Part shown: in pieces, positions 1 to 34,457 of the stretch
How the letters are laid out: each line of letters begins with the position of its first letter
Numbering within the stretch: position 1 is the first letter of the stretch
Virus record (IMG/VR): IMGVR_UViG_3300033145_000192
Span: 113,376 to 177,375 of that record
Reading direction: 5' to 3' (one strand)
Source: a virus
Length of the DNA: 64,000 bases
Notes under the pieces: model-generated
What the model was told of the DNA's origin: nothing
Databases searched by the model: none
What the model saw: only the letters and a program-made list of their open reading frames with translations
Made by a program: the position numbers and the translations under genes

Positions 1-3000
1 TCGTAATTGAATCAATCTTCTCGATGATTTGCTTGTTCGTGTCTTGGCCACGGCTGATTCCTTCATTCAGTCTGCCAATTGACTCAGCGAATCCTTCAGT
101 CAATATCCTCTGCATATTACGCGCAGCATCTTCCGATACCTTCGTGGTGTTATTACTCAACTGCTCAGAAAGCTTCAAGAACTTGTCAACTGCATCGGCA
201 GCCTGACCCTTTGTCTTGATGCCTCTAGCTACATCACCAAATCCCTGTGAACCTAGAAGCTGTCTTGTTCTTTCAACATTGATATGTCTACGTCCACGCT
301 TGCCTTCGCCACGAACACCCTTTAGGTCCTTGACAAACGAGGTATCTCTTCCGCCTCTTTGTTGTAGTAGTCCTCTAAAGCTACTCTCAACGGCTTCCTT
401 GCCACCTTCCTGTGCCATTAGGTGCTTGTAAATTGCGCGTCCTTGTCCACGCTTGCCGCCCCCATGAACCTTGAGACTTTGACGCTTCAGCCTTCTTAGC
501 AGATTACGCTGCTCTCTAGTTCCTCCGCTATCCGAAATCTTACGCTCAAGCTCCTTTATGCGTGGGTCAATTAGTCTAACTCCTCCACCTCCGATGGTAG
601 GACGAACTGTTTTCTGTAGCCTTGACAAGACTCCACCCATACCCTGCTTGAATTGTCCACCACCCATTCCGCCAGGAGCAGTTAGGGCACCAATTCCACT
701 TGGCCTCTTACCCATTCCAGTGATTTCTCCAAGGACCCTTGCGAATTCCTTGAGCTTCGGAGTGGCTTCATCCATACTGCCAGCCAATTTATCAGTAGAG
801 CCCTTCAGCTTCTCCTTCTTAGGGTCAACTGCGGGTAGGTCTCCAATTGTGCCACTAGAGATGATTCCCTGAACATAGTCGATGGTTTCCTTGGTTGCAG
901 TCTTATTCCTGATGTCCTTCATCATCTTCTGGATTCCAGCAACGGTTTCCATTTCCTTCTTGTAGCTGGCCTTTCTCTTCTCATCTCTCTCTGGGTCTCT
1001 CTTATAGCCGGAGTCTCTGAAGTCTTGCTGCAATTGGCCTCTTACATCCCACTGCTTGTGCCTGAAGCCCTTAAGTGCCTCCCATACCTTCTCACTTCCC
1101 TTTACTCTACCCTCTGGACCAAGTATTTTACCATACGCTGCTGTGGTGAGTCTAGCACGGTTAAGTGCATCAATACCGGTCTTTAGCTTGTCCATGTCTG
1201 TAGTAAGCTGGGCTCTAGAACCCTGTAGCGCCTTGATAATATCGGTCCTTTGCTGCATTGCAATCTGAGCATCTAGGGACGCAACCTTCAATAGCTGCTG
1301 CTGAATGTTGGCATCGAACTCGTCTATTGCGATAATCCTGTCTTGCTTTTCCTTAATCTGCTTCTGGATTTCTGCGATGCGAGCGGCTTCCTTCTCTCTC
1401 TGCTTTCCAATCTTTTCTGGTGAGAATATCTGTAGTTGACTGAATAGCTGTAGTAGCTCCTTATTGCCAACTCCACTTACTAGCTCTGGTCCACCAAATC
1501 TATCTTGTGACTGCATACCCTGAAGGACACGAAGTAGGACTTGGCTGCCGCCCTGCTCCCTTACTCTCTTGATTCTGCCACCAAGCTGTCCCAGCCCCTC
1601 CTTACCAACACCCTTGATACCGCTAACAAAGGCTTTGGCCAGGTTCATGTTCTTGATAGCTTCTTTGAACTTATCTGGACTTTCGAGAAGTAGACGGCCA
1701 AACTCAGCCTGCTGATTACGCCTTTGGGCATATAGCTGATTTTCCTGCTGCATACGCGTTTGGAGAGCGCCTATTTGCTGCTGTAGGGCGACCTTTCTAA
1801 TCTCTATTTCGCGCTGAGTGCTCCTTACTCTAAGTTCTACATCGGAACGTAGTTCGGCTGCGGCCTGCCTTTCATTAGCAAGCTTGAATCTGATAAGTCC
1901 TGTTTCTTCGTCAACAACCGTTTGGTTTGCCTTAACGCCTGCTACCTTGATTGCCTTAGATAGCGCACCTATCATTTGACCTAGGCCAGCAGTTCCGCCA
2001 ACGCCTGGACCAACAGTTCCAAGCTGCCTACCGGCTCCATGCTGGATAGCAGCCAATTGCTGCGCGGCTCCACGCCTGATTTCAGTTAGTCTACGCTCTA
2101 CGCTTGCACCACTGGTCTCAAGTAGCTGTAGTTGCTTACCTGACATGTCAGAGATTTTCTTAACAAGCGCACTGCCTATGGTGGCAAATACTGAAGCTAG
2201 TCTTTCCTGTGCTCCTATTACATTTTCGAACGCACCAGCAGCATTAGAAGCGGCCTCTTCCCATGCCTGAATCTGGTCGAGTGTCTTGTCCTTAGACCAC
2301 TCTACCATATCCATTTGGGCCTTCATCTCAGCCGCTAGCATATTGTGCTTGGCGTCCTCAATTTGCTTCGCAGTCTTCTTACTGCTAGCCTGAAGACGCT
2401 TGGCTTCTTCGCTACTCTCAGCCGTAGTTGAATCTAGTAGTCCCTTTTGTATCGTCAACGACTCAATTTGTCTCTTGAATTCACCCTTGTCAAACTTTAG
2501 AGTAGCGCCGATTGCACTTCTGCCACCAACACCAGCCATCATTCCCTGTTGAATTACACTTCGCTGCTTCGCAAGGTTATTGTCTTCCTCTTGGATACGT
2601 AGGATGCGCTCTAGAACAACGAGTCTTTCTTGTTCTACTTCCGCCATTTTTCCTACGGTTTCAAATCCAAGCTGCTTCAACTTGGCATACTTAGATTCCA
2701 TTGCTTTTCTGAGGGTTACCTGATAGGCTGCGTCAGCTTCGCCCTCGGCAATTTGCAAGCCTATACGCTCAATGTCCTTAAGGATTTTGGCTCTTCGTTT
2801 TGCAGCATCTACCGCAGCAGCCGCCCTTTCGGCGTCATTCTTTGCTTCCTTAGCAACCTGCTGTCTAGTAGTAAGTTCGGCCTTTAGCTCCTCTAGCCTT
2901 TGCTTCTGTTGCCCAGTTAGACGGTCACCGTCCTTTACCTGGGCATTCATCCACTTGAATAGCGCCTTTGCCTTAGCTACTCCTGGGTCCTTGTTTTCAA

Positions 3001-5392
3001 TTGCAGTTAGTTTATCTAGCTGCTCTTGTGTAGCTTCGCCACTGGCCTCAATTACCCTCAATCTTTCGATTTCGGCAGTTGGCTTAATCATTCTTCTGGC
3101 TTGCTTGACGAGTTGTAGTGACTCTCCTATCTTCTTAAGGTCATTTGCCTTCTTTGTAGCTTCATCGAATTGTTCCTCATACTTACCAATGGCGAACCCA
3201 AAGCCTGCTCCAACGGCAGCACCAACAATGGCTCCGATAGGTCCACCAAGCATAGCGCCCATACCAGCGCCTCTGGCGGCTTCTCCTAGGCCCTTACCTA
3301 GTCCCTTACCTGCGGACTTGGATACAGTTTCTTCTAGAGGACCAGAGATAGCAGTAAGCGCCATACCAGCGACCATACTGCCCATACCTGGCATCATCCT
3401 GCCCATACCAGAGCCCATGCCACCAAAGCGGCTAGCAATGCCACGACCAGCGCCAGCAACTCCACGGCCTGCCATTCTGGCACCAAAGCCGCCAACCTGT
3501 CCTGCTCCTCTTAGGAAACCACCAGCCCTGCTGCCCATAACAGCACCACCGGCTCTTCGTCCAACGTCAGCTACTCTTCCTCCGACTGCACCAAAGCCAC
3601 CAGCGATACGGCTACCAAATCCGCCAACGGCACTCATGCCACGACCGAGTGTGCTTCTCTGTCTCTGCATAGCTCCTAGGCCAGTAGCCATTGGGGCTTG
3701 TGCTCCAATTGCTGCGCCACCCATTGTTCTGGCAGATTGTGCTACCTTGTTGCTAAGGTTTTGAATACCTACGCCAAGCCTACTCTTGTTAATCTTGTCT
3801 GCTGTGGAACTAACACTGGCCCCAAAGGACTTAAGTGGCTGCTTGACATTCTTATTGAAATCACCCGCTCTACTCTTGTCAAAGTCCGCAGAACGAGCCA
3901 GTGCTCTCTTCGTGATATCAGCCTGTGCTCCAGTGCTGGCACGAGTTGTTAGCCTTTCTCCACTGCGCATAATGGCAGAGGTTGGGTCACCAGTTACGGT
4001 TTGGCCTCTGCGTCTCATGGCAGAAAGCTTGCTTGCAGCCCTCTGTGTTGGAGATACAGTGTGTCCAGCCTGTGACCTTAGTGCGACTCTCATAGGGTCG
4101 TTAGCTGGCATTGATGATAGTTGTCTCATACCAGGAGTTGTCATTGCTGGCATTGGCATTGGCATGCCTGGCATTGGTGCCATCATACCTGGTAGTGGTG
4201 TAAGTCCACCTCTTACCTTCTTCAATGCCTCTGTGGATTGCCACTGCCTCATTCCTGCTAGAGCTGGATATTGCATTGGCATTGTTCTGTCTGCACCAGC
4301 GCCGATACTGCGAAGACCTCCTCTTACTCCTTGAAGTGCGGAAACCTGTCCAGCAATTGGCGCACCCTGTCCGACTCTCGTTGGTCTTCCGGCAAACATG
4401 TTTCCACGAACATTCGGTCCACCGAACCACGCCTTTGTTGCTTTGGATGCAGTAGATGCTGGGGCATTAGGATGCATAGGCTGTGAGTATGGCAACATAC
4501 TCTGTCTTCTTTGTTGCCTCTGCATGCCCAGGACTTCTCTATCCTGACGCCTATAGTTTAGGTTTCCAGGTGCGCTTCCTAGTGGACGACCAGCCATTTG
4601 CCTTGTTGGCGTTCCTGCTGGCTGTAGTCTACTACTTGCCTTACCCGTGAAGAATACTCTTGTTCCTAGTGACGCAGAGCTAGCTGGAGCCTTTGGGTCT
4701 AGGTGTGAAGGTAGACGTGGGCCCTGCATTGCCCCAGTTGTTGGGAATGTTCTAGTAGCTCTTGTTGTTCCGGACCTTAGCATTGCGGAGCTTACCGCTG
4801 GGGAAAGACCTCTTCCTCCCATATTTCTGGCAACTGCCGCTTCTCTTGCAAAGTCTCTTCCAGTTCCTAGGCCAGAGAGTTGGAGCTTCCTTTGTCCACC
4901 CCACGATGCACCCTCGATTTGTCCACCACTTCTAGTAGGACCTATTCTGCGTCTACCACCTAGAGGAAGTGTTGGTAGAGGGAGTTGTCGTTGTCCAGCA
5001 GCGGCAAGGAAATCCTTTGAATAACCAGAACTGCCAGGACTAAGTAGACGACCACCCACTCCGGGATGTTGGCCACCACCACCAAGCCATCCTCTTGTAA
5101 AGCCGGGACTAGGTAGCTGACCACCTTGGGCACTTGGAATTGGACCCAACATGCCACCGGCAGGACCACGGGTTCCGCCTGCTCCTGGGAGTCGTGCAGT
5201 TCCAGCAGTAAATCTTCTGAAGTCACGACCGGCAATTAGTGACCCGCCGCCACCACCGATGAAAGGTCCAGCGCCAAATCCTGCTCTACCGGCTCCAGCA
5301 GCGCCACCGCCGCCTCCACCTCTTCCACCGCCTCCACCGCGATAATGCCGCCTCTTACCATACCGGCTGGTCCACCAGCGGCAGATATTCTT
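1..5392 (-). CDS. Tail tape measure protein, C-terminal part (continues past window edge)
   Basis: This is an uninterrupted reading frame that leaves the window at base 1. It lies in the -1 frame relative to the N-terminal part at 5236-6993. The frame opens after a TAG at 5393-5395 and stays open to the edge, about 1,800 residues. Its start is very rich in Gly, Ala, Arg and Pro. A Gly-rich, probably membrane-active segment follows near 3,180-3,480, and then long alpha-helical, Lys/Glu/Gln-rich coiled-coil sequence. That composition suits a siphovirus tape measure, which sets tail length and sits inside the tube. No start codon with a ribosome site is seen in this frame near 5,390, so I read it as the continuation of the upstream frame through a frameshift. 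Confidence 0.75.
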
Positions 5393-8166: not shown

Positions 8167-9365
8167 CAGATTGTCCCTCCTGGGAACTGCTTGAAGGCGT
8201 TCCGACCACCTTGTCGCCCGCCTCGTCGTTGTCCACCACGGCTCTTCTTATCCAAAACAGCATCGGTAGAACCGATTATTCTTCGCGCACCACGATTGTT
8301 TCGTGAACGCAAGTCCTTTTCGTTCAATACCTTCTTATCTCGGATATGACCAAGCTCCTTCATTTTGAACTTACGAGTATTAGGTGAGTTTAACTCATCA
8401 ACAACGGCTGTGTCTGGTGCGTTAGGGTTGATGTCCGGGTTGGTTACGATGAACACTTCACCGTGTCGTGCTACCTCTTGCGATACCTTAACGCCACGTC
8501 CGACATCTTCTCTAGTTCCAGAAGTCCTAGACTTTCTCTTCTTGCGTTGCTTATCTTGCACCTCGAACCAAGCATCCAATTTAGCATCATTTTCAATCAC
8601 CTCCTCTGGTGGAGGCTCTGGAGATTCGTATACAGAGTCATATACCTGACTCCAGTATAGTAGATTTTGTTGGTCATTGTCCAACTCAATAATCGGTTTT
8701 CCAAACAAACTATCTATGTTGCTCTTTGCACCATTCCACCTAAAGCGCCAGTGGGAACTTCTAGCAACCTCTCTTGTTTCACTAATAGGAACAGTGGTAT
8801 CTTCGGCTAACGCAATTATCAACCCACCAATTAGAGTTATATCGGTTTCGTTTAGGAAATCGTCCCACGTTTCCCATAACCTCTTGTCGTTCTCATCATA
8901 CGATAAGCAGTAGGCTAGTGCAAGACTTCTGACTTCTTCTGCATATACTTCTGCCGAAGCGGCAAACATCGACCGCTTCTTTTGTTCTAGTTCTTTTAGT
9001 GCGCGGCCTTGGGCTTCAATAACCTTGGCAGTTCTCTTGAAAACTCTTGAATTCTTCTTCGCACCTGTGATTTCTTCCCCAAGCTCCTTGATGCGCTTTT
9101 TGGACCGCTTAATGGCATCGTCCTCATGTGGACCCCATAGCTCTCGCTCATTTAGAATTCGCTTAAGCTCAAAGCGACCCAAAACACCAGTAGACATAGC
9201 TTCCTTGAGCGCCTTATCATAAATGAAAGACACAAAGCCTTTTTGTCTACTATTTGGGGATTTGAGTATGACAATCTTTTTCTTGCCATATTCATTTTCG
9301 ATGTAATTATACCTGGAGCCCCACGTAATCCTAGCAATCCTATCCTCAATCTCCTCTGGAGACAC
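8166..9365 (-). CDS. Putative tail assembly or minor tail protein
   Basis: A 399-residue, mostly helical protein that is highly charged. The C-terminal third is basic and Gly/Arg-rich (repeated RGG and GGR). A region near residues 60-90 resembles the product of 7076-7855, suggesting the two genes arose by duplication. It lies between the tail tube and tape measure genes, where tail chaperones or minor tail proteins sit. The function is unproven. A GC-rich hairpin lies just upstream at 9381-9402. Confidence 0.5.
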   Translation of the reverse strand: MSPEEIEDRIARITWGSRYNYIENEYGKKKIVILKSPNSRQKGFVSFIYDKALKEAMSTGVLGRFELKRILNERELWGPHEDDAIKRSKKRIKELGEEITGAKKNSRVFKRTAKVIEAQGRALKELEQKKRSMFAASAEVYAEEVRSLALAYCLSYDENDKRLWETWDDFLNETDITLIGGLIIALAEDTTVPISETREVARSSHWRFRWNGAKSNIDSLFGKPIIELDNDQQNLLYWSQVYDSVYESPEPPPEEVIENDAKLDAWFEVQDKQRKKRKSRTSGTREDVGRGVKVSQEVARHGEVFIVTNPDINPNAPDTAVVDELNSPNTRKFKMKELGHIRDKKVLNEKDLRSRNNRGARRIIGSTDAVLDKKSRGGQRRGGRQGGRNAFKQFPGGTI

Positions 9366-9380
9366 ACCACCCCCTTATAG

Positions 9381-9402
9381 GGTAAAGGGGCGAGCAAGCC
9401 CG
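9381..9402 (-). terminator. Possible weak terminator after tail tube gene
   Basis: On the minus strand a GC-rich stem-loop (GGGGCG and CGCCCC around an 8-nt loop) is followed only by TTTA. It lies between the tail tube gene and the next gene. The short T tract makes it a poor or partial terminator. Confidence 0.4.
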
Positions 9403-9427
9403 CCCCAGACCTTTCCTTAACCAGACC

Positions 9428-10585
9428 TTATAGGAACACCTCGTGCGAGATTGTCAAATCGTTGAAGGTGCTGTAGTTGTAAGTCACGCTCATGTTGTCG
9501 CCACCAGCTTCTCCACCCGTTAGGTCGATAGACTGCAAACGACTCTTGTTTCCAAGGTTAATCCTCAAACCCTCGCAGAGCTTGATGATGATTTCCTGGT
9601 CAGCAGTGTTCTCGGCTACAACGCAGTTCACTGCCTCGTAGGAGATAGCATCGACCAAGTCACCCTGGGAAGTAATTGCCTCAATGGCGCACGTTACCTC
9701 AACTGGATAGGAAACATACTTGAAGAACGGACGCTTGGAGCCAAGCTCAAAGATGTCCTCACGTCCAAGGTCACAGGAAATTGTGATGCCCTGAATGTGC
9801 TCGCTGATGTTTGTCAATGTTCCGGACGCACTGACGCCAGGAATATCGGTTGGTAGGCGAGATACAACTAGGTCGAAGCCTTCGCGTCTTTCGACACCAG
9901 AACCGATTGTCGTAGCGGACTCACCACCACTCGTTGTGAATGGAGTAATTCCACCAGGATTAGGAGCCAAGATACCACTTGGGTAACCTAGCTGCGTCTG
10001 CGTGCTTCCACCATCTCCAACACCGCTACCTCTTAGTAGGTTAGTTGGAAGTGGGTCTCCACCCTCAAAGTTGGACCAAATCTTGTCATTACCAACTAGG
10101 GTGACAGACTCGGTGAAGTTTCCGTCAACTGGGAACGAGTAGTTGATGGAGCTTAGATACATACCGGAACCGTATGCCATAGATAGTGGCGTTCCAATTG
10201 CGCTCGTCTGAGTATCCGCATAGATAGGAACGGCAATGTCTGCTCTATAGCTGGCAGTTCTCCCGATAAGAGTCGAAGTTCCACGAGGACCAGTAGTCAT
10301 GAACCATAGAGGCTTAGTTCCATCAAGAACCTTCTCAATGGTGAACTCAATCTCTGGCTCAAGCTCTACATACTCGTATAGCTGGATTTGACCAAGCTGG
10401 AATACTTGTTCGAAGTTGAATGTCGTTGTCATTCCAACGGACTGAACGCCGCGTGGGATATCCCAGCGGCCAGAAGGAGCAACGTCAACTCCTGCGATAA
10501 GTGGAACTACTTCGTTTGTGGGTGTAGTCCCATTTTCCTTAATTGCTACACTGTGAATAGCGTAGAATACTCTATTGTTAGGCAT
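9428..10585 (-). CDS. Major tail tube protein (probable)
   Basis: A 385-residue, beta-rich, Gly/Ser/Thr-rich protein with no charged coiled coil. It sits between the connector genes and the tail assembly genes, where the tail tube gene lies in siphoviruses. The C-terminal region is typical of tube and sheath-like proteins with repeated beta strands. It has its own -10-like element (GTGTATAAT at 10639-10647), fitting a highly expressed structural gene. A GGAGGG ribosome site precedes the ATG. A different virion protein is possible. Confidence 0.6.
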   Translation of the reverse strand: MPNNRVFYAIHSVAIKENGTTPTNEVVPLIAGVDVAPSGRWDIPRGVQSVGMTTTFNFEQVFQLGQIQLYEYVELEPEIEFTIEKVLDGTKPLWFMTTGPRGTSTLIGRTASYRADIAVPIYADTQTSAIGTPLSMAYGSGMYLSSINYSFPVDGNFTESVTLVGNDKIWSNFEGGDPLPTNLLRGSGVGDGGSTQTQLGYPSGILAPNPGGITPFTTSGGESATTIGSGVERREGFDLVVSRLPTDIPGVSASGTLTNISEHIQGITISCDLGREDIFELGSKRPFFKYVSYPVEVTCAIEAITSQGDLVDAISYEAVNCVVAENTADQEIIIKLCEGLRINLGNKSRLQSIDLTGGEAGGDNMSVTYNYSTFNDLTISHEVFL

Positions 10586-10638
10586 TTTCTACTCCCTCCG
10601 AATTAGGACTGCTGATGTCTAAAACCACTGGCTACTTG

Positions 10639-10648
10639 ATTATACACC
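10639..10648 (-). promoter_or_regulatory. Late promoter-like element GGTGTATAAT
   Basis: A perfect TATAAT preceded by GTG, upstream of the tail tube gene. The same GTGTAT(A/G) element recurs before at least six other leftward genes with no conserved -35 box that I can see. Confidence 0.55.
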
Positions 10649-10654
10649 AAACAC

Positions 10655-11575
10655 CTAAAAGTTCGGATATACTCTAGCATTAAAATTGACTCTGGTGCGC
10701 TCTATCTCAAACAAAGGCATATCCTTCGTCGGACCAGTTTGGTCTAGATAGATTCGTCTCCAAAAATATTGGCCATTCACATCAGCCAAGGTTGAGTAAG
10801 TTGTGAAATTTGGATTGCGTTCCCCTCTACTTAAGAGTGGATATTGAGCCGTATTGAAGTCGATTCCAACGAGCACTTGTCTTTGTTCATCCGCAAGGAT
10901 ATCCTCAATCATATCCCTTTGGAAATCATCGTGTGCCCATACATGGAATACACCAAAATAATCGGCAACTAGTGACCTCCAACCGAGTTCGTATCCAAAC
11001 GACGTTCTGGTCAATATATCAATGAATACGGCAGGAAGCGTCCTTGTATCTGATGTAGGATAACTCTCTACACCAGTTTGGGCCGGGTTATCTTTCATCG
11101 AAGTCTCTATTTGCAATGGCATGTTTTCATTATTGAATGCATTGGCGAAATCAACAGTGACTTCTTTGAATGAGTAGTTTGCTTGAACAACTGGGCTGCC
11201 CGTTAGTGGACTATCGAAAATCACTCTTCCATTTGGAAAATCAATTATGTGCGCGTATGTCCCAGTTGTCTGTGTCGTCTGATAAAACGTCCCGTCTACT
11301 ATAACACCAGAAGAGACAACCGGAGGCGAGATAATTCCGGATTCGATAGGAATGATACCGCTCTCATAGACCCAGCCTTTGTATGGACTTTGGAACACAG
11401 TTCCGTCAACAGGAAATGTGGGGTCTTGGGATGGCATCAAACGACTTATGTCATTTCCATACACATCCGTAGTTCCAGATGCAATAGTGGTGAAGAGTCC
11501 ATGTCTGAGGAATAGGTCATTTAGCCACAACTCAAGGTTTGACTTTAGCAATGCTTTCTTGCCCATTGTAGCCAT
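10655..11575 (-). CDS. Virion structural protein, connector/tail region
   Basis: A 306-residue protein, beta-rich in its first half (many Thr, Gly, Pro and Val). Its second half contains aromatic-rich segments such as YELGWRSLVADYFGVFHVWAH. It lies between a neck-type protein and the tail tube. Genes here usually encode head-tail joining or tail terminator proteins. I do not recognise a specific family. It overlaps the upstream gene by one base. Confidence 0.5.
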   Translation of the reverse strand: MATMGKKALLKSNLELWLNDLFLRHGLFTTIASGTTDVYGNDISRLMPSQDPTFPVDGTVFQSPYKGWVYESGIIPIESGIISPPVVSSGVIVDGTFYQTTQTTGTYAHIIDFPNGRVIFDSPLTGSPVVQANYSFKEVTVDFANAFNNENMPLQIETSMKDNPAQTGVESYPTSDTRTLPAVFIDILTRTSFGYELGWRSLVADYFGVFHVWAHDDFQRDMIEDILADEQRQVLVGIDFNTAQYPLLSRGERNPNFTTYSTLADVNGQYFWRRIYLDQTGPTKDMPLFEIERTRVNFNARVYPNF

Positions 11576-13155: not shown

Positions 13156-13164
13156 ATCATACAC
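13156..13164 (-). promoter_or_regulatory. Late promoter-like element GTGTATGAT
   Basis: Lies about 35 bp upstream of the connector gene start. It is one member of the GTGTAT(A/G) family seen across the leftward block. Confidence 0.5.
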
Positions 13165-17808: not shown

Positions 17809-17817
17809 AATATACAC
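17809..17817 (-). promoter_or_regulatory. Late promoter-like element GTGTATATT
   Basis: Member of the GTGTAT family, about 20 bp upstream of the first fibre-like gene start. Confidence 0.5.
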
Positions 17818-19761: not shown

Positions 19762-21360
19762 TTAGTTGTCTTCACTGCTTGGCTTGTGAGCCTTAAGCAT
19801 TGTGGTTACTAGACCAGCATAAGCGTTTTCAAAGTCCATAGGTGTTGGAGCTTCTCCAGCGGATGGAGCGGCTTCAGCAACTACATTCTCAAGAATAGAC
19901 GCATCGGTTTCACCCTCTCCGTCATCATCTTCACTTTCGTCCTCATCAGCGGCACTTGCCTCTGCTGGAACTTCCGGCTTTGCTGGAACTGTTGCAAGCG
20001 CAACCGTCTCCTTGTAATCCTCAAGGAATGCTGCAAAAGCCTCGTCATCCATATGCTCGGCGGAAGAAAGAATCTTCTGTGCCTTCGCATCAATCATGTC
20101 TGTGTTCTCGTCAGTGCGTAGACCAGAAAGAACCTTGTCAATCTCTGACAATCTGTCTCTCGTCTTCGCCTCTGCGGCCTGTGCTGCTAGCTTTTCGTTA
20201 GCTTCGGCTAGCTGCTTCTTAAGCTCGTCGGTTTCTAGGTTGCTGGCTGAGATAGCCTCAACAAGAACTCCGAAGAACTCCTCGGCCTTTGCACTTGCTA
20301 GCTTCTCACCGACTCCGGGAAGAACCTTATCAAGCGCCTGTGCGCCCTTAACAAATGCACTGGTAATGTTCTCGACTTGCTTCTCAAGCTCTACCTTCTC
20401 AGCCACAGCGGCGTCCTTCTCACTGGCAGTAGTCTTAACTTCTGCTCGGAGAGTAACAGCTTCTTCTGTAGCGGCAGTATACTTGTCGAGAGGGACTCCA
20501 GCGCCGGTCTCTGCGTTGTTAGTATCACTCATTGTGTCTGAATCCTTCCTTGACTCTTTAACAGTCTGACTATTACTCCCCAAGTCACCAATAACATTGT
20601 TGGCAATTGCTTTTACGCTTGCCTCATTGGCTCCCATAGGTGTGTGAGTTACCGATTGAATAACAGATGGTTCGTTTGCTGGTCTTTCTACTATTCCTTT
20701 ACCGCCAAAAACTATGTTTCTCAGTATTCTCTTTACGGTAGAACTTCCAAATGAACCGTTTCCGCCATTAGCCTTAAGGCTGTCGTCCAAGAAGGCCGTA
20801 TCTTCGTTTCTAGCAATGACCTTGCTACCTACTAGGTAATCATAGTCACTAAACCATGCTTCCATCGAAACGAAAAGTCTACCTTCTTCTGCGCCTTTTT
20901 CAATTCTAGCAGCAACCGTAGGAAACAAAGCCTTCCAAATCACGGATTCATCCACGACATGGAATTGAGTTGGAACCTCGAAATCTACTGCTGACGCCTT
21001 ATCTTCAGAAATCACAACACCGTCGTTATCAGTAACGTATGCATTATACATTACACCAATTGTCTGGTTATCAACGACGACTTTTCCTGGATTTTCTTTT
21101 TGTTCGGACTCTGTTAATTCTCTACCCGTATTATGCTCCCAATCAACAGGCTTAAGTGCTGGCGTGGCGCGGGCTTTCCATGTCTCTTCTGGTAAGAATA
21201 CATCATCGTTCAGGTTTGAACCAGTGCTAACTAAAACAGACTTCATATAGAGAAGGTCTGGCTGTGCAACTACCGCCATCCCACCAACAGTTTTATGCTG
21301 TGTTTGTGGTGATGCGATTACTTGACACGGCACTAGCAATCTGGTTTTGAACTGTTCCAT
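19762..21360 (-). CDS. Prohead protease fused to scaffold protein
   Basis: About 532 residues from the ATG at 21360 (ribosome site GGAG). The N-terminal 260 or so residues resemble a prohead maturation protease (VDWEHNTGRE, FVSMEAWF). The C-terminal half is an acidic, Ala/Glu/Lys-rich coiled coil typical of scaffold. A second ATG at 20532, after AAGGAAGG, would give a scaffold-only product of about 256 residues, the nested arrangement known from lambda C/Nu3. It cleaves and shapes the procapsid. Confidence 0.7.
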   Translation of the reverse strand: MEQFKTRLLVPCQVIASPQTQHKTVGGMAVVAQPDLLYMKSVLVSTGSNLNDDVFLPEETWKARATPALKPVDWEHNTGRELTESEQKENPGKVVVDNQTIGVMYNAYVTDNDGVVISEDKASAVDFEVPTQFHVVDESVIWKALFPTVAARIEKGAEEGRLFVSMEAWFSDYDYLVGSKVIARNEDTAFLDDSLKANGGNGSFGSSTVKRILRNIVFGGKGIVERPANEPSVIQSVTHTPMGANEASVKAIANNVIGDLGSNSQTVKESRKDSDTMSDTNNAETGAGVPLDKYTAATEEAVTLRAEVKTTASEKDAAVAEKVELEKQVENITSAFVKGAQALDKVLPGVGEKLASAKAEEFFGVLVEAISASNLETDELKKQLAEANEKLAAQAAEAKTRDRLSEIDKVLSGLRTDENTDMIDAKAQKILSSAEHMDDEAFAAFLEDYKETVALATVPAKPEVPAEASAADEDESEDDDGEGETDASILENVVAEAAPSAGEAPTPMDFENAYAGLVTTMLKAHKPSSEDN

Positions 21361-25197: not shown

Positions 25198-25207
25198 ATC
25201 ATACACC
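25198..25207 (-). promoter_or_regulatory. Late promoter-like element GGTGTATGAT
   Basis: Between the terminase stop and the portal start. Member of the GTGTAT(A/G) family with a leader of ordinary length. Confidence 0.5.
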
Positions 25208-29623: not shown

Positions 29624-30220
29624 TTATAGGAATTCAGTCTCAAAATAGAAGCCAATGTTGGTCTTCTCACCAATGCTCGTTGGTGTTGCGGACAAAGCGA
29701 TGAAGAAGTCGTGCGTGGTAAAGTCCGCTGTAATCTGGTCGTAAAGACTAAGCGTCGAACCTGAACCGGCAATTGTTGACCAGTTCGTATTACCAGAACC
29801 TCTATCGCCCGTAAGGAACTTGCGAACCTCGGCTGCCCTAATTGTCACGCCACTTGGGTTGTTGTCAATATCCACACGGTCGAACGCTCTTAGCGATGCA
29901 TTCTGCGTCTGGATGGCGTTGTCAGTTACCAACGTAATCTTGAGCGTTGTCTCGTCGTTGTCAACTTCCCTAAGCTCAGTAGCCGTTAGCTCACCGGCAA
30001 CATAAGCGCCGGATACATTGGCATAACGCAAGTTAGGTAGCGCACCACCATTTGACGTTCCATTCTGATTTGTTCTGAATGAAGTGTTGTTGTATTCCCC
30101 AACTCGAATCGAGAATCCGAAGTTCGAGCCGAAGAATCCTAGAGTGTTAAGTCCACCAGAAGCGGCTGGTAGAATTTCTGGGCTGCCGTCTCCAGCATAC
30201 CATCTAATTGTAGTTGCCAT
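29624..30220 (-). CDS. Probable virion decoration-type protein
   Basis: A 198-residue, Asn/Thr/Gly-rich, beta-predicted protein (MATTIRWYAGDGSPEILPAASG). Such composition is common in capsid decoration or fibre domains. It is separated from the sigma-like gene by about 90 bp. The role is inferred from composition only. Confidence 0.5.
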   Translation of the reverse strand: MATTIRWYAGDGSPEILPAASGGLNTLGFFGSNFGFSIRVGEYNNTSFRTNQNGTSNGGALPNLRYANVSGAYVAGELTATELREVDNDETTLKITLVTDNAIQTQNASLRAFDRVDIDNNPSGVTIRAAEVRKFLTGDRGSGNTNWSTIAGSGSTLSLYDQITADFTTHDFFIALSATPTSIGEKTNIGFYFETEFL

Positions 30221-30310: not shown

Positions 30311-30916
30311 TTAAGCCAGCAGCTTTTTAACAAACGACTGGATTTTCCTTTTGTCCTTCTTAGGGACCTTTTTTCCTTGGCCTTTCAGCATCTTGCACAA
30401 TGATTCCTTCAGGTCTGGAGATATCGAGTCAACGACATACTTCTCCAAGTCTTTATACTCCAATTCCTCCTCGAATCGAGCATGTTTTATTGTATCTCCT
30501 AGCATATCAATGGGTATGGGATGGAGAATCCGCAGCTTCCTTTGGAGGTTAGCTTGGAATTTCTGCCACCTGGCATAGTCCTGAGTCTTTTTGAATTCAA
30601 GCATCTCGGCAGGAGTCATACCATCTAAGTTCACACGAACTGGTGGGGACGTGCGTAGATAGTTGTCTCGCTTGAGGTTCTTTAATCCGTTATCGACACA
30701 TCGCCCAAAGAAATTCTTCCAGCGGTCAGCCTTGACCCTAGTAGAATCAAAATGTTCGATTGCCTTAAAGCAAATCAGACGTATCTCCTGAGCAATGTCG
30801 TCAGGTGCCCAACAGCCAAATGCATATGAATGAGACTTGGTTCTAACAAGATACTCTACGATATCAGTGATATCGCTGTATTCAATCCTTGTCTTTACCG
30901 TCTCCGTCTTCAGCAT
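30311..30916 (-). CDS. Sigma-factor region-2-like protein
   Basis: 201 residues from the ATG at 30916, behind GGAGGAG. The central part (PDDIAQEIRLICFKAIEHFD, then a Trp/Phe-rich helix, CVDNGLKNLKRDNYLR) follows the layout of sigma-70 region 2: core-binding helix and -10 recognition helix. I see no region 4, so it may work like T4 gp55, which needs only a -10 type element. The recurring GTGTAT(A/G) boxes before leftward genes are candidate targets. Confidence 0.55.
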   Translation of the reverse strand: MLKTETVKTRIEYSDITDIVEYLVRTKSHSYAFGCWAPDDIAQEIRLICFKAIEHFDSTRVKADRWKNFFGRCVDNGLKNLKRDNYLRTSPPVRVNLDGMTPAEMLEFKKTQDYARWQKFQANLQRKLRILHPIPIDMLGDTIKHARFEEELEYKDLEKYVVDSISPDLKESLCKMLKGQGKKVPKKDKRKIQSFVKKLLA

Positions 30917-31097
30917 CTCCGGACTTATCTCCTCCGTCGTCTTGTCCTTCTTGTCCTTCTTCGTATTCACCAATTGTATTTCTCTCAATCAGTTCGGCTT
31001 CGCTCAATCCTGCGACAGCCTTACGTTGCACTTTTCTAAGGTCCGGGGACTTTTTAACAGTGACAGACGATTTTACGACAATCTTCTTTTCATTCAT
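30882..31097 (-). CDS. Small protein with acidic tail
   Basis: A 71-residue protein: Lys-rich start (MNEKKIVVKSS) and a very acidic C-terminus (EEGQEGQDDGGDKSGDAEDG). It overlaps the sigma-like gene by 35 bp in another frame, using the chosen sigma start. An AGGA ribosome site precedes the ATG. No family recognised. Confidence 0.5.
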   Translation of the reverse strand: MNEKKIVVKSSVTVKKSPDLRKVQRKAVAGLSEAELIERNTIGEYEEGQEGQDDGGDKSGDAEDGDGKDKD

Positions 31098-33347: not shown

Positions 33348-34026
33348 CTAACGTAAGTCTTTGATATCACCTCTTAGAAACTTCTTGAGAGATGACTTCT
33401 TATTTGTTCTATGGTCTACAACCAGGTCTTTGCGCTCGCAATAGGTTCTAACTTTGTCCCCTCTTGCCCCTCTACCGACCTGGCTTTTCCTCTTGGCGTT
33501 CTTTTTATCTTTGTTGCGTCCCCGTTGGGCACTAAATAACTTAGCCCGCATGGCGTTCAGGGCCAACGCCTTATTGCGTCCCTGCCTGCGGCCATACTGG
33601 GCTATAACTACCATTCCTGTTGGGATGTGGGTTAGTCGAACTGCACTGTCAGTTTTATTTTTATGCTGTCCACCAGGTCCGCTACCTCTAAAGAAAGTAA
33701 ATCTGAGGTCTTGTGGTCTAAGTGCCACTTCAGTCTTTTGCTGGTGTTGTAAGACAGCAACGGTAATAGTGCTTGTATGAACTCTTCCCCTGCGCTCTGT
33801 AGGCGGGACTCTTTGGTATCTGTGGACCCCTGCCTCGTGACTGAAAACTTCATTTGCTCTCCTTCCTCCTACTTCTAGGACGACATATGATGCGGCGCGG
33901 TCGAGCAATTCAATGCTAAAGATGCTCCTTAGCGGCGACCTTCCTGAATACGTTCTCGAACTTGACAACCAAGTCCTTGGCGTCTGCACCACCAGCGGCG
34001 GCGCGAATCTCAATCGTTACGTTCAT
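33348..34026 (-). CDS. RF1-type peptide chain release factor with +1 frameshift
   Basis: Translation starts at 34026 (GAGGAG site) and runs 36 codons (EIRAAAGGADAKDL) to an in-frame TAG at 33916-33918. A +1 shift gives 225 residues. The following frame holds VPPTE, the PxT stop-recognition motif of RF1, and GPGGQ, the catalytic motif. Sequence around the stop reads AAG GAG CAT CTT TAG C, matching the layout of the E. coli prfB shift site (internal Shine-Dalgarno, 3 nt, CTT, stop). Domain 1 of normal release factors is missing. It would terminate at UAG and UAA. Confidence 0.85.
33910..33930 (-). promoter_or_regulatory. Programmed +1 frameshift site (CUU-UAG)
   Basis: Minus-strand AAGGAG, CAT, then CTT TAG C. 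Internal Shine-Dalgarno, spacer and slippery codon have the same spacing as prfB, but the stop is UAG rather than UGA. Slipping CTT to TTT moves the ribosome to AGC, and the downstream frame encodes the rest of the release factor. Confidence 0.85.
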
Positions 34027-34034
34027 TATCTCCT

Positions 34035-34436
34035 CTATTCCTCACTCCAGAAACAATCGTCGTCAATCATCTCTTCGACTGTAGTGTCTCCTTGATTCAA
34101 ACTGTCTTCAATGCGGGCATCCCAGATGTCAAAGTCAACGAACTGGTTGCGCCTTAGATAAAACAAAAAGTTGCGCACGTTCTTCACCATTAGATAGTCA
34201 GCATCCATGCCGCCCCTATGCGCGTTCCAATAGTATTCGATGAAGTAGGCATACCTTGTGCATCTCAGTATACATACGTCGGGACCGTTAGACAACATGA
34301 AGAAAACCATGTCGCCAAATTCTTCGGCATTGTCGCGGACGGGACCAATTACAAGGCCCATCTTTTCCGCAGCGTTGCCAACTTTTGTTGCTCTTTTGAG
34401 TGTCTCAATTGAAAACTTCGGCTTGTCCACTTTCAT
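34035..34436 (-). CDS. Hypothetical protein, first gene of the leftward block
   Basis: 133 residues from the ATG at 34436 (AGGTGGGAGG site); an upstream in-frame ATG at 34457 overlaps the promoter-like element. Mixed, somewhat acidic, with an aromatic segment (FIEYYWNAHRGG). No family recognised. It directly precedes the release-factor gene, 8 bp apart. Confidence 0.55.
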   Translation of the reverse strand: MKVDKPKFSIETLKRATKVGNAAEKMGLVIGPVRDNAEEFGDMVFFMLSNGPDVCILRCTRYAYFIEYYWNAHRGGMDADYLMVKNVRNFLFYLRRNQFVDFDIWDARIEDSLNQGDTTVEEMIDDDCFWSEE

Positions 34437-34448
34437 TCCTCCCACCTT

Positions 34449-34457
34449 TCTATACAC
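34449..34457 (-). promoter_or_regulatory. Promoter-like element GTGTATAGA
   Basis: Lies 12 bp before the first leftward gene start. It shares the GTGTAT core of the leftward family. Confidence 0.45.

Follow-up and report, generated by a model that had tools for sequence, protein, structure and literature searches.

A predicted domain-2 phage sigma factor and a proposed single-element promoter motif before leftward late genes in a clade of large uncultured tailed phages

In an undescribed clade of large uncultured tailed phages, it seems quite probable that a phage sigma factor of the domain-2 type, together with the element (A/G)GTGTAT(A/T)(A/T), directs the host core polymerase to the leftward late genes without a -35 element. 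The proposed protein has sigma-70 domain 2 at its centre. Here the DDIAQE helix (region 2.2) would most likely bind the beta' coiled-coil of the host core, while the region 2.3-2.4 helix (WKNFFGRCVDNGLKNLKRDNY) would read and open a single -10-like element, upon which transcription of the leftward late genes (portal, capsid and tail) would follow; a box in front of the sigma gene's own run may let the switch reinforce itself. Core binding, late timing, autoregulation and the choice among the three sigma-like proteins of the phage are what we infer. The pairing of protein and motif had been put forward in an initial annotation of this DNA, of which the observation itself is confirmed and the interpretation supported.

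The system looks like a new sigma family and a variant within a known kind of phage gene switch (T4, phiEco32), and literature searches found nothing on the clade's sigma or its motif. A late-gene switch can thereby be predicted for this clade and the late promoters of its genomes become annotatable. Across the relatives the promoter word shifts from one sigma factor to the next, a natural series in which the reading and opening of promoters by domain 2 without region 4 becomes testable.

The window (i.e. the whole stretch of 64,000 nt that was analysed) covers positions 113376-177375 of the 177,375-base virus record IMGVR_UViG_3300033145_000192. The phage itself is denoted G000, related contigs G001-G014, and loci fetched from contigs carry L numbers; the records are assemblies, several of them fragmentary, and gene starts were set by the longest open frame. 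Between ~51 and 148 kb of the record the genes are almost all leftward, and this block holds the terminase, portal, major capsid protein, an RF-1-like protein and a class II ribonucleotide reductase. The closest terminases in 50,697 named phage records share only ~21-29% identity, and the clade is therefore without described close relatives. A search for the host found no relative of the sigma-like protein or the terminase in GTDB genome contigs. The RF-1-domain, release-factor-like protein (window 33348-34013, minus strand; PF00472, 1.6e-29) is encoded in the same gene run as the ribonucleotide reductase and the sigma-like gene. In L006, the ribonucleotide reductase and terminase frames (1303-4095 and 8351-11290) greatly exceed their orthologues in length and look as if they carry inteins.

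Table 1. Sigma-like genes, the overlapping small frame and the leftward boxes (window coordinates unless marked "record")
Feature	Position	Strand	Remarks
Sigma-like gene	30311-30973	-	Open frame to 30988; conserved TTG start 30973
71-aa ORF with acidic tail	30882-31097	-	Overlaps the start of the sigma-like gene; conserved in six genomes
Full sigma-70 protein, regions 2 and 4	record 9979-10716 (L013)	+	PF04545, 1.9e-11
120-aa region-2-only sigma-like protein	record 87778-88140 (L017 7778-8140)	-	PF04542, 1.3e-6
Box GTGTATAGA	34449-34457	-	21 nt before ATG 34436; kept in G001 as GGTGTATAGA and in G002 as GGTGTATTAA
Box GTGTATGAT	25198-25206	-	50 nt before portal start 25156; kept in G001, G003, G002, G005
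Box GTGTATAAA	22933-22941	-	19 nt before ATG 22922; kept in G001, G003
Box GTGTATAAA	21385-21393	-	~33 nt before likely ATG 21360, gene 19762-21360; kept in G001, G003, G002, G004
Box GTGTATATT	17809-17817	-	28 nt before ATG 17789; kept in G001, G003
Box GTGTATGAT	13156-13164	-	41 nt before ATG 13123; GTGTATAAT in G001, G003
Box GTGTATAAT	10639-10647	-	62 nt before ATG 10585, gene 9428-10585

The sigma-like protein and its family

The open frame 30311-30988 on the minus strand encodes 225 residues. The initial annotation had started the gene at ATG 30916. This is probably wrong: five relatives keep the TTG at 30973, and the residue that the ATG reading takes as its start is missing from L001. 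The TTG, preceded at 7-8 bases by a GAGAG/AGAGG-like Shine-Dalgarno sequence, is the likely start.

Relatives were collected by direct search, by walking from the terminase and by alignment-based scans, which gave a family of 14 members on IMG/VR contigs, each located a few kb upstream of a related terminase on the same strand. Further viral searches, with the L033 protein as query, left the family at this size. The protein of the window clade has no significant PHROGs match, and the window protein has no tblastn match in the 50,697 named phage records. Seven residues (D64, Q67, E68, R70, C97, N100 and R107) are invariant in 14/14 members. The first three of these correspond in the alignment to the DLIQEG helix of RpoD, a helix of sigma-70 that contacts the core. 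In the distant relatives L071, L072, L074, L075, L076, L004, L009 and L034 a Cys-rich, zinc-finger-like stretch of the form CxxC..C..C or CxxxC..H..C stands just after region 2.4; the window member is without it.

Taken alone, the window protein matches Pfam Sigma70_r2 (PF04542) at E = 0.032, which is below the curated cut-off. Four of the 14 members do exceed this cut-off (L033 at 1.3e-10, L032 at 2.3e-9, L071 at 1.8e-8 and L074 at 1e-5), and a profile of five family members retrieves L033 at 1.4e-24 and L032 at 5.9e-16. Because these relatives pass the cut-off and are linked to the window protein by the profile search and by alignment, its region-2 homology follows by transitivity. The sigma-70 region-2 homology of the family is therefore established at the level of sequence, through the relatives and not through the window protein alone. 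The region-2-like character that had been ascribed to the protein, for which an HMM search had been named as a check, is thus borne out by these four relatives, and the structure agrees.

The structural model was built with AlphaFold from nine sequences (mean pLDDT 71), a five-sequence model with a pLDDT of 57 having been set aside. All 50 of the 50 PDB matches listed by Foldseek are sigma or holoenzyme chains, with a best E of only 0.014 and with low whole-chain TM-scores, the domains being placed differently. Residues 36-110 of the model superimpose on domain 2 of sigma-A with -10 single-stranded DNA (3ugo) at 2.0 Å over 68 residues, with a Z of 7.8, a value that can also come from common helical arrangements. 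The superposition of the model supports, rather than proves, sigma homology.

Region 4 was not detected by Pfam in any member, nor by hhalign. The protein had been described as being without region 4, which holds in so far as none is detectable in the sequence, but a helical C-terminal domain is present: the last third of the model is formed by helices 170-188, 191-201 and 210-224, which the structural aligner puts on sigma region 4, though the overall rmsd exceeds 20 Å. Between domain 2 and this C-terminal part lies a conserved PID..GD stretch that recalls the sigma region 3.2 linker, by resemblance only.

A second reading of the protein starts from this C-terminal part. Domain 4 would have been reduced to a polymerase anchor that does not read DNA, the small overlapping gene would encode a partner, and the element and the recognition helix would drift together through the clade (GGTGTAT, TAGTGTA and others), with the Cys insert that follows region 2.4 in several members as a further part of the picture. 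A single chain would then do the work that gp55 and gp33 share in T4. As a joint proposition this is rather unlikely, with something of the order of one chance in five. The product of the 71-aa ORF, for which no Pfam match was found, could possibly be a partner or an anti-sigma protein of the sigma-like protein.

The GTGTAT boxes in front of leftward genes

Over the 177-kb record, GTGTAT(A/G) occurs 21 times leftward versus 6 times rightward. The seven leftward genes said to be preceded by such boxes indeed have them, at all seven sites (Table 1), and the enrichment is repeated in relatives; beyond the window, the record has three further leftward boxes (55097, 55042 and 37114). In the leftward block, GGTGTAT is the most upstream-enriched of all 7-mers (7/8 copies upstream, p ~3-5e-6, uncorrected), where upstream means the 100-110 bases before leftward genes and p-values are uncorrected unless the word was fixed beforehand. 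The top upstream 6-mer of the block is TTTTTT, a terminator tract. The motif as originally written is real, albeit looser at its end, with (A/G)GTGTA(T) as its conserved core and A/T-rich sequence after it. No motif stood out when one was sought for rightward genes. The second enriched word in G000, CCTATAA, was considered as another promoter type and rejected, since some copies are the ends of upstream genes (CTA TAA); the copy at 29630, for example, is kept in G001 as coding sequence.

Alignment of 25 sites pooled from five genomes, which were picked by the core pattern so that only their flanks are informative, gives t.GGTGTAT(A/T)AA and a T/A-then-purine pair 13-14 bases downstream from the initial G of GTGTAT. 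This pair is a plausible transcription start, as far as can be read from the alignment. The claim of a single element with no shared -35 holds on the same 25 sites, where the best match to TTGACA has 2.56 mismatches versus 2.62 in the background.

Two boxes (22941 and 34457) lie so near the start codons that the presumed transcript start would leave leaders of only ~5-8 nt. This had been recognised as a weak point and it does remain one as regards leader length, but both boxes are conserved, 22941 in G001 and G003 and 34457 in G001. For the former, G004 has GTGTATTGC at a greater distance upstream. The abutting of these two boxes on the start region, together with the partial explanation of CCTATAA by stop codons, is what could be said for the enrichment being a by-product of ribosome binding or of stop/start codon context, or for the boxes being some other kind of site. 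Against this, the boxes lie 19-62 nt before start codons (up to ~95 nt in relatives), they are strand-biased and non-coding, and they are kept where the neighbouring sequence is not. A by-product of this kind can be given almost no probability.

Several boxes are indeed conserved in front of orthologous genes, even though the encoded proteins share only 42-74% identity. The boxes before genes 9428-10585 and 19762-21360 are both retained in G001, G003, G002 and G004, the former as GTGTATTTA in G002 and as GTGTATAAA in G004. Among upstream 7-mers, GGTGTAT takes first place in G000, G002 and G007, each tested separately (in G007 with 8/12 copies upstream), and as a fixed word it ranks first of all 7-mers in the divergent relatives G002, G004 and G005 pooled (p 5e-6). 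Individually, the motif is weak in G004, G005, G006 and G010. The word shifts in other relatives: TTAGTGT is on top in the more distant G011 (12/14 copies upstream, p 3e-11), where the form is TTAGTGTA followed by variable bases, and TAGTGTA is joint top in G014 (6/6 upstream, p 1e-6). No GTGTA motif was found in the family members G012 and G013. In G013, a 79,804-base contig with a distant sigma member, TATAAATA, the T4 late promoter word, has 5/8 copies upstream, with modest significance. Judging from the sequence, several sites in G011 and one in G005 come immediately after inverted repeats that carry T runs, a placement that is expected of promoters following terminators. As a positive control, the same script ranked TATAAAT first in T4 late DNA (3e-8), and not GGTGTAT; on phiEco32 it was too weak to recover the few promoters of that phage.

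The boxes could also be extended -10 promoters for the primary sigma of the host, for which no phage sigma would be needed. In favour of this, GTGTATAAT contains TATAAT beside TG, like some extended -10 promoters. However, the TG is joined directly to TATAAT, versus the one base between them in TGnTATAAT, and TATAAT is not likewise enriched, most sites not being TATAAT at all; the conserved part is GTGTA (TTAGTGTA in G011). It is thus very unlikely that the host sigma accounts for the boxes.

Pairing of the protein with the boxes

The phage has genes for two further sigma-like proteins (Table 1), and from correlations between protein and motif we infer that the window protein would be the one reading the (A/G)GTGTAT boxes. 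Of the sigma types, the window family alone was found in every motif-bearing contig, whereas the other types come and go, although this co-occurrence is partly built in because the contigs were gathered by the terminase or by the window family itself. The protein of record 9979-10716 has a 31%-identical relative in G006 and that of 87778-88140 one in G007, likewise 31% identical, while G011 has two sigma-like genes of other kinds.

Either of these two proteins might instead read the boxes as late promoters, the window protein then being a competitor, a co-regulator or something with another role. Both are encoded in the same record and both match Sigma70_r2 better than the window protein does. 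Yet G000 has both types, G006 the region 2+4 type, G007 the small type and the 50 kb analysed from G002 neither, whereas the window family is present in G000, G002, G006 and G007 alike (absence from incomplete contigs being weak evidence). For a sigma factor that has region 4 one would expect a -35 element, and none is seen at the boxes. That another sigma-like protein of the phage reads the boxes is therefore improbable.

Some large phages encode their own polymerases, and the motif might accordingly be the promoter of a phage-encoded RNA polymerase, to which the sigma-like protein would be unrelated. The RNA polymerase beta domain (PF04563) is absent from eight contigs with working controls, which makes the host core the likely partner and leaves only a very slight chance for a phage polymerase. 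A T7-type polymerase (PF00940) gave no match in the contigs searched, nor did its controls.

For the proposed sigma factor itself, the arrangement of boxes and genes is consistent with feedback. Box 34457 heads a gene run comprising gene 34035-34436, the RF-1-like gene, the ribonucleotide reductase and the sigma-like gene. A box heads the gene run that includes the sigma-like gene in G000, G001 and G002, and in G004 and G005 it stands nearer the sigma-like gene; with a box in this position, self-reinforcement would be possible.

Comparison with known phage systems

The nearest known arrangement, in logic as well as in promoter word, is that of phiEco32 gp36 with tAATGTAtA. Its middle and late promoters consist of this single element, which has been explained by the missing region 4, and transcripts start 6-8 bp downstream of it (PMC8948821). 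The phiEco32 and window systems resemble each other in the size of the phage sigma, in its having no recognised region 4 and in promoters of one element that lack a -35; the phiEco32 element is one base off TAGTGTATA of the relatives G014 and G010. On the other hand, phiEco32 belongs to another phage clade and the element of the window has the form GGTGTATAA. Comparison of gp36 with the family by hhalign gave only a 20-residue match in region 2.2 and no significant link beyond it.

T4 gp55 is a small, divergent sigma reduced to region 2, with late promoters that have only a -10 element (PMC2988020). The likeness to gp55 and T4 late promoters that had been proposed stands as an analogy, as the window system would, like T4, combine a domain-2 sigma with -10-only promoters, and both phages have the gene in the neighbourhood of ribonucleotide reductase genes; it does not extend to the promoter word, and phiEco32 gp36 is nearer. 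The T4 late promoter is TATAAATA, whereas TATAAAT ranks 122nd upstream in G000, with GGTGTAT first. No significant hhalign match was found between the family and one gp55 sequence, which is a weak test of homology. The C-terminal clamp-binding tail of gp55 is not visible in the window protein, and a search for a bacterial-type clamp (PF00712) found none.

In phage 7-11, the late-gene sigma gp47 also acts with the host core, with region 4 present and with bipartite promoters, GTAAtg-(16)-aCTA (PMC8948821). Bacterial sigma-70 and ECF factors and the SPO1-like sigmas of Bacillus phages share the domain 2 fold and the region-2 signature with the window family; they have region 4 and usually a -35 element, neither of which was detected in the window system. 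Region 4 is present in most members of the sigma-70 superfamily and absent in gp55 and gp36.

Outside the part of the window that carries the boxes, between 36000 and 64000, there are three tRNA-like genes (Leu, Asp and Lys) as well as numerous short ORFs that have no clear function, and the G+C content rises from ~0.47 to 0.50-0.58 where the genes turn mostly rightward.
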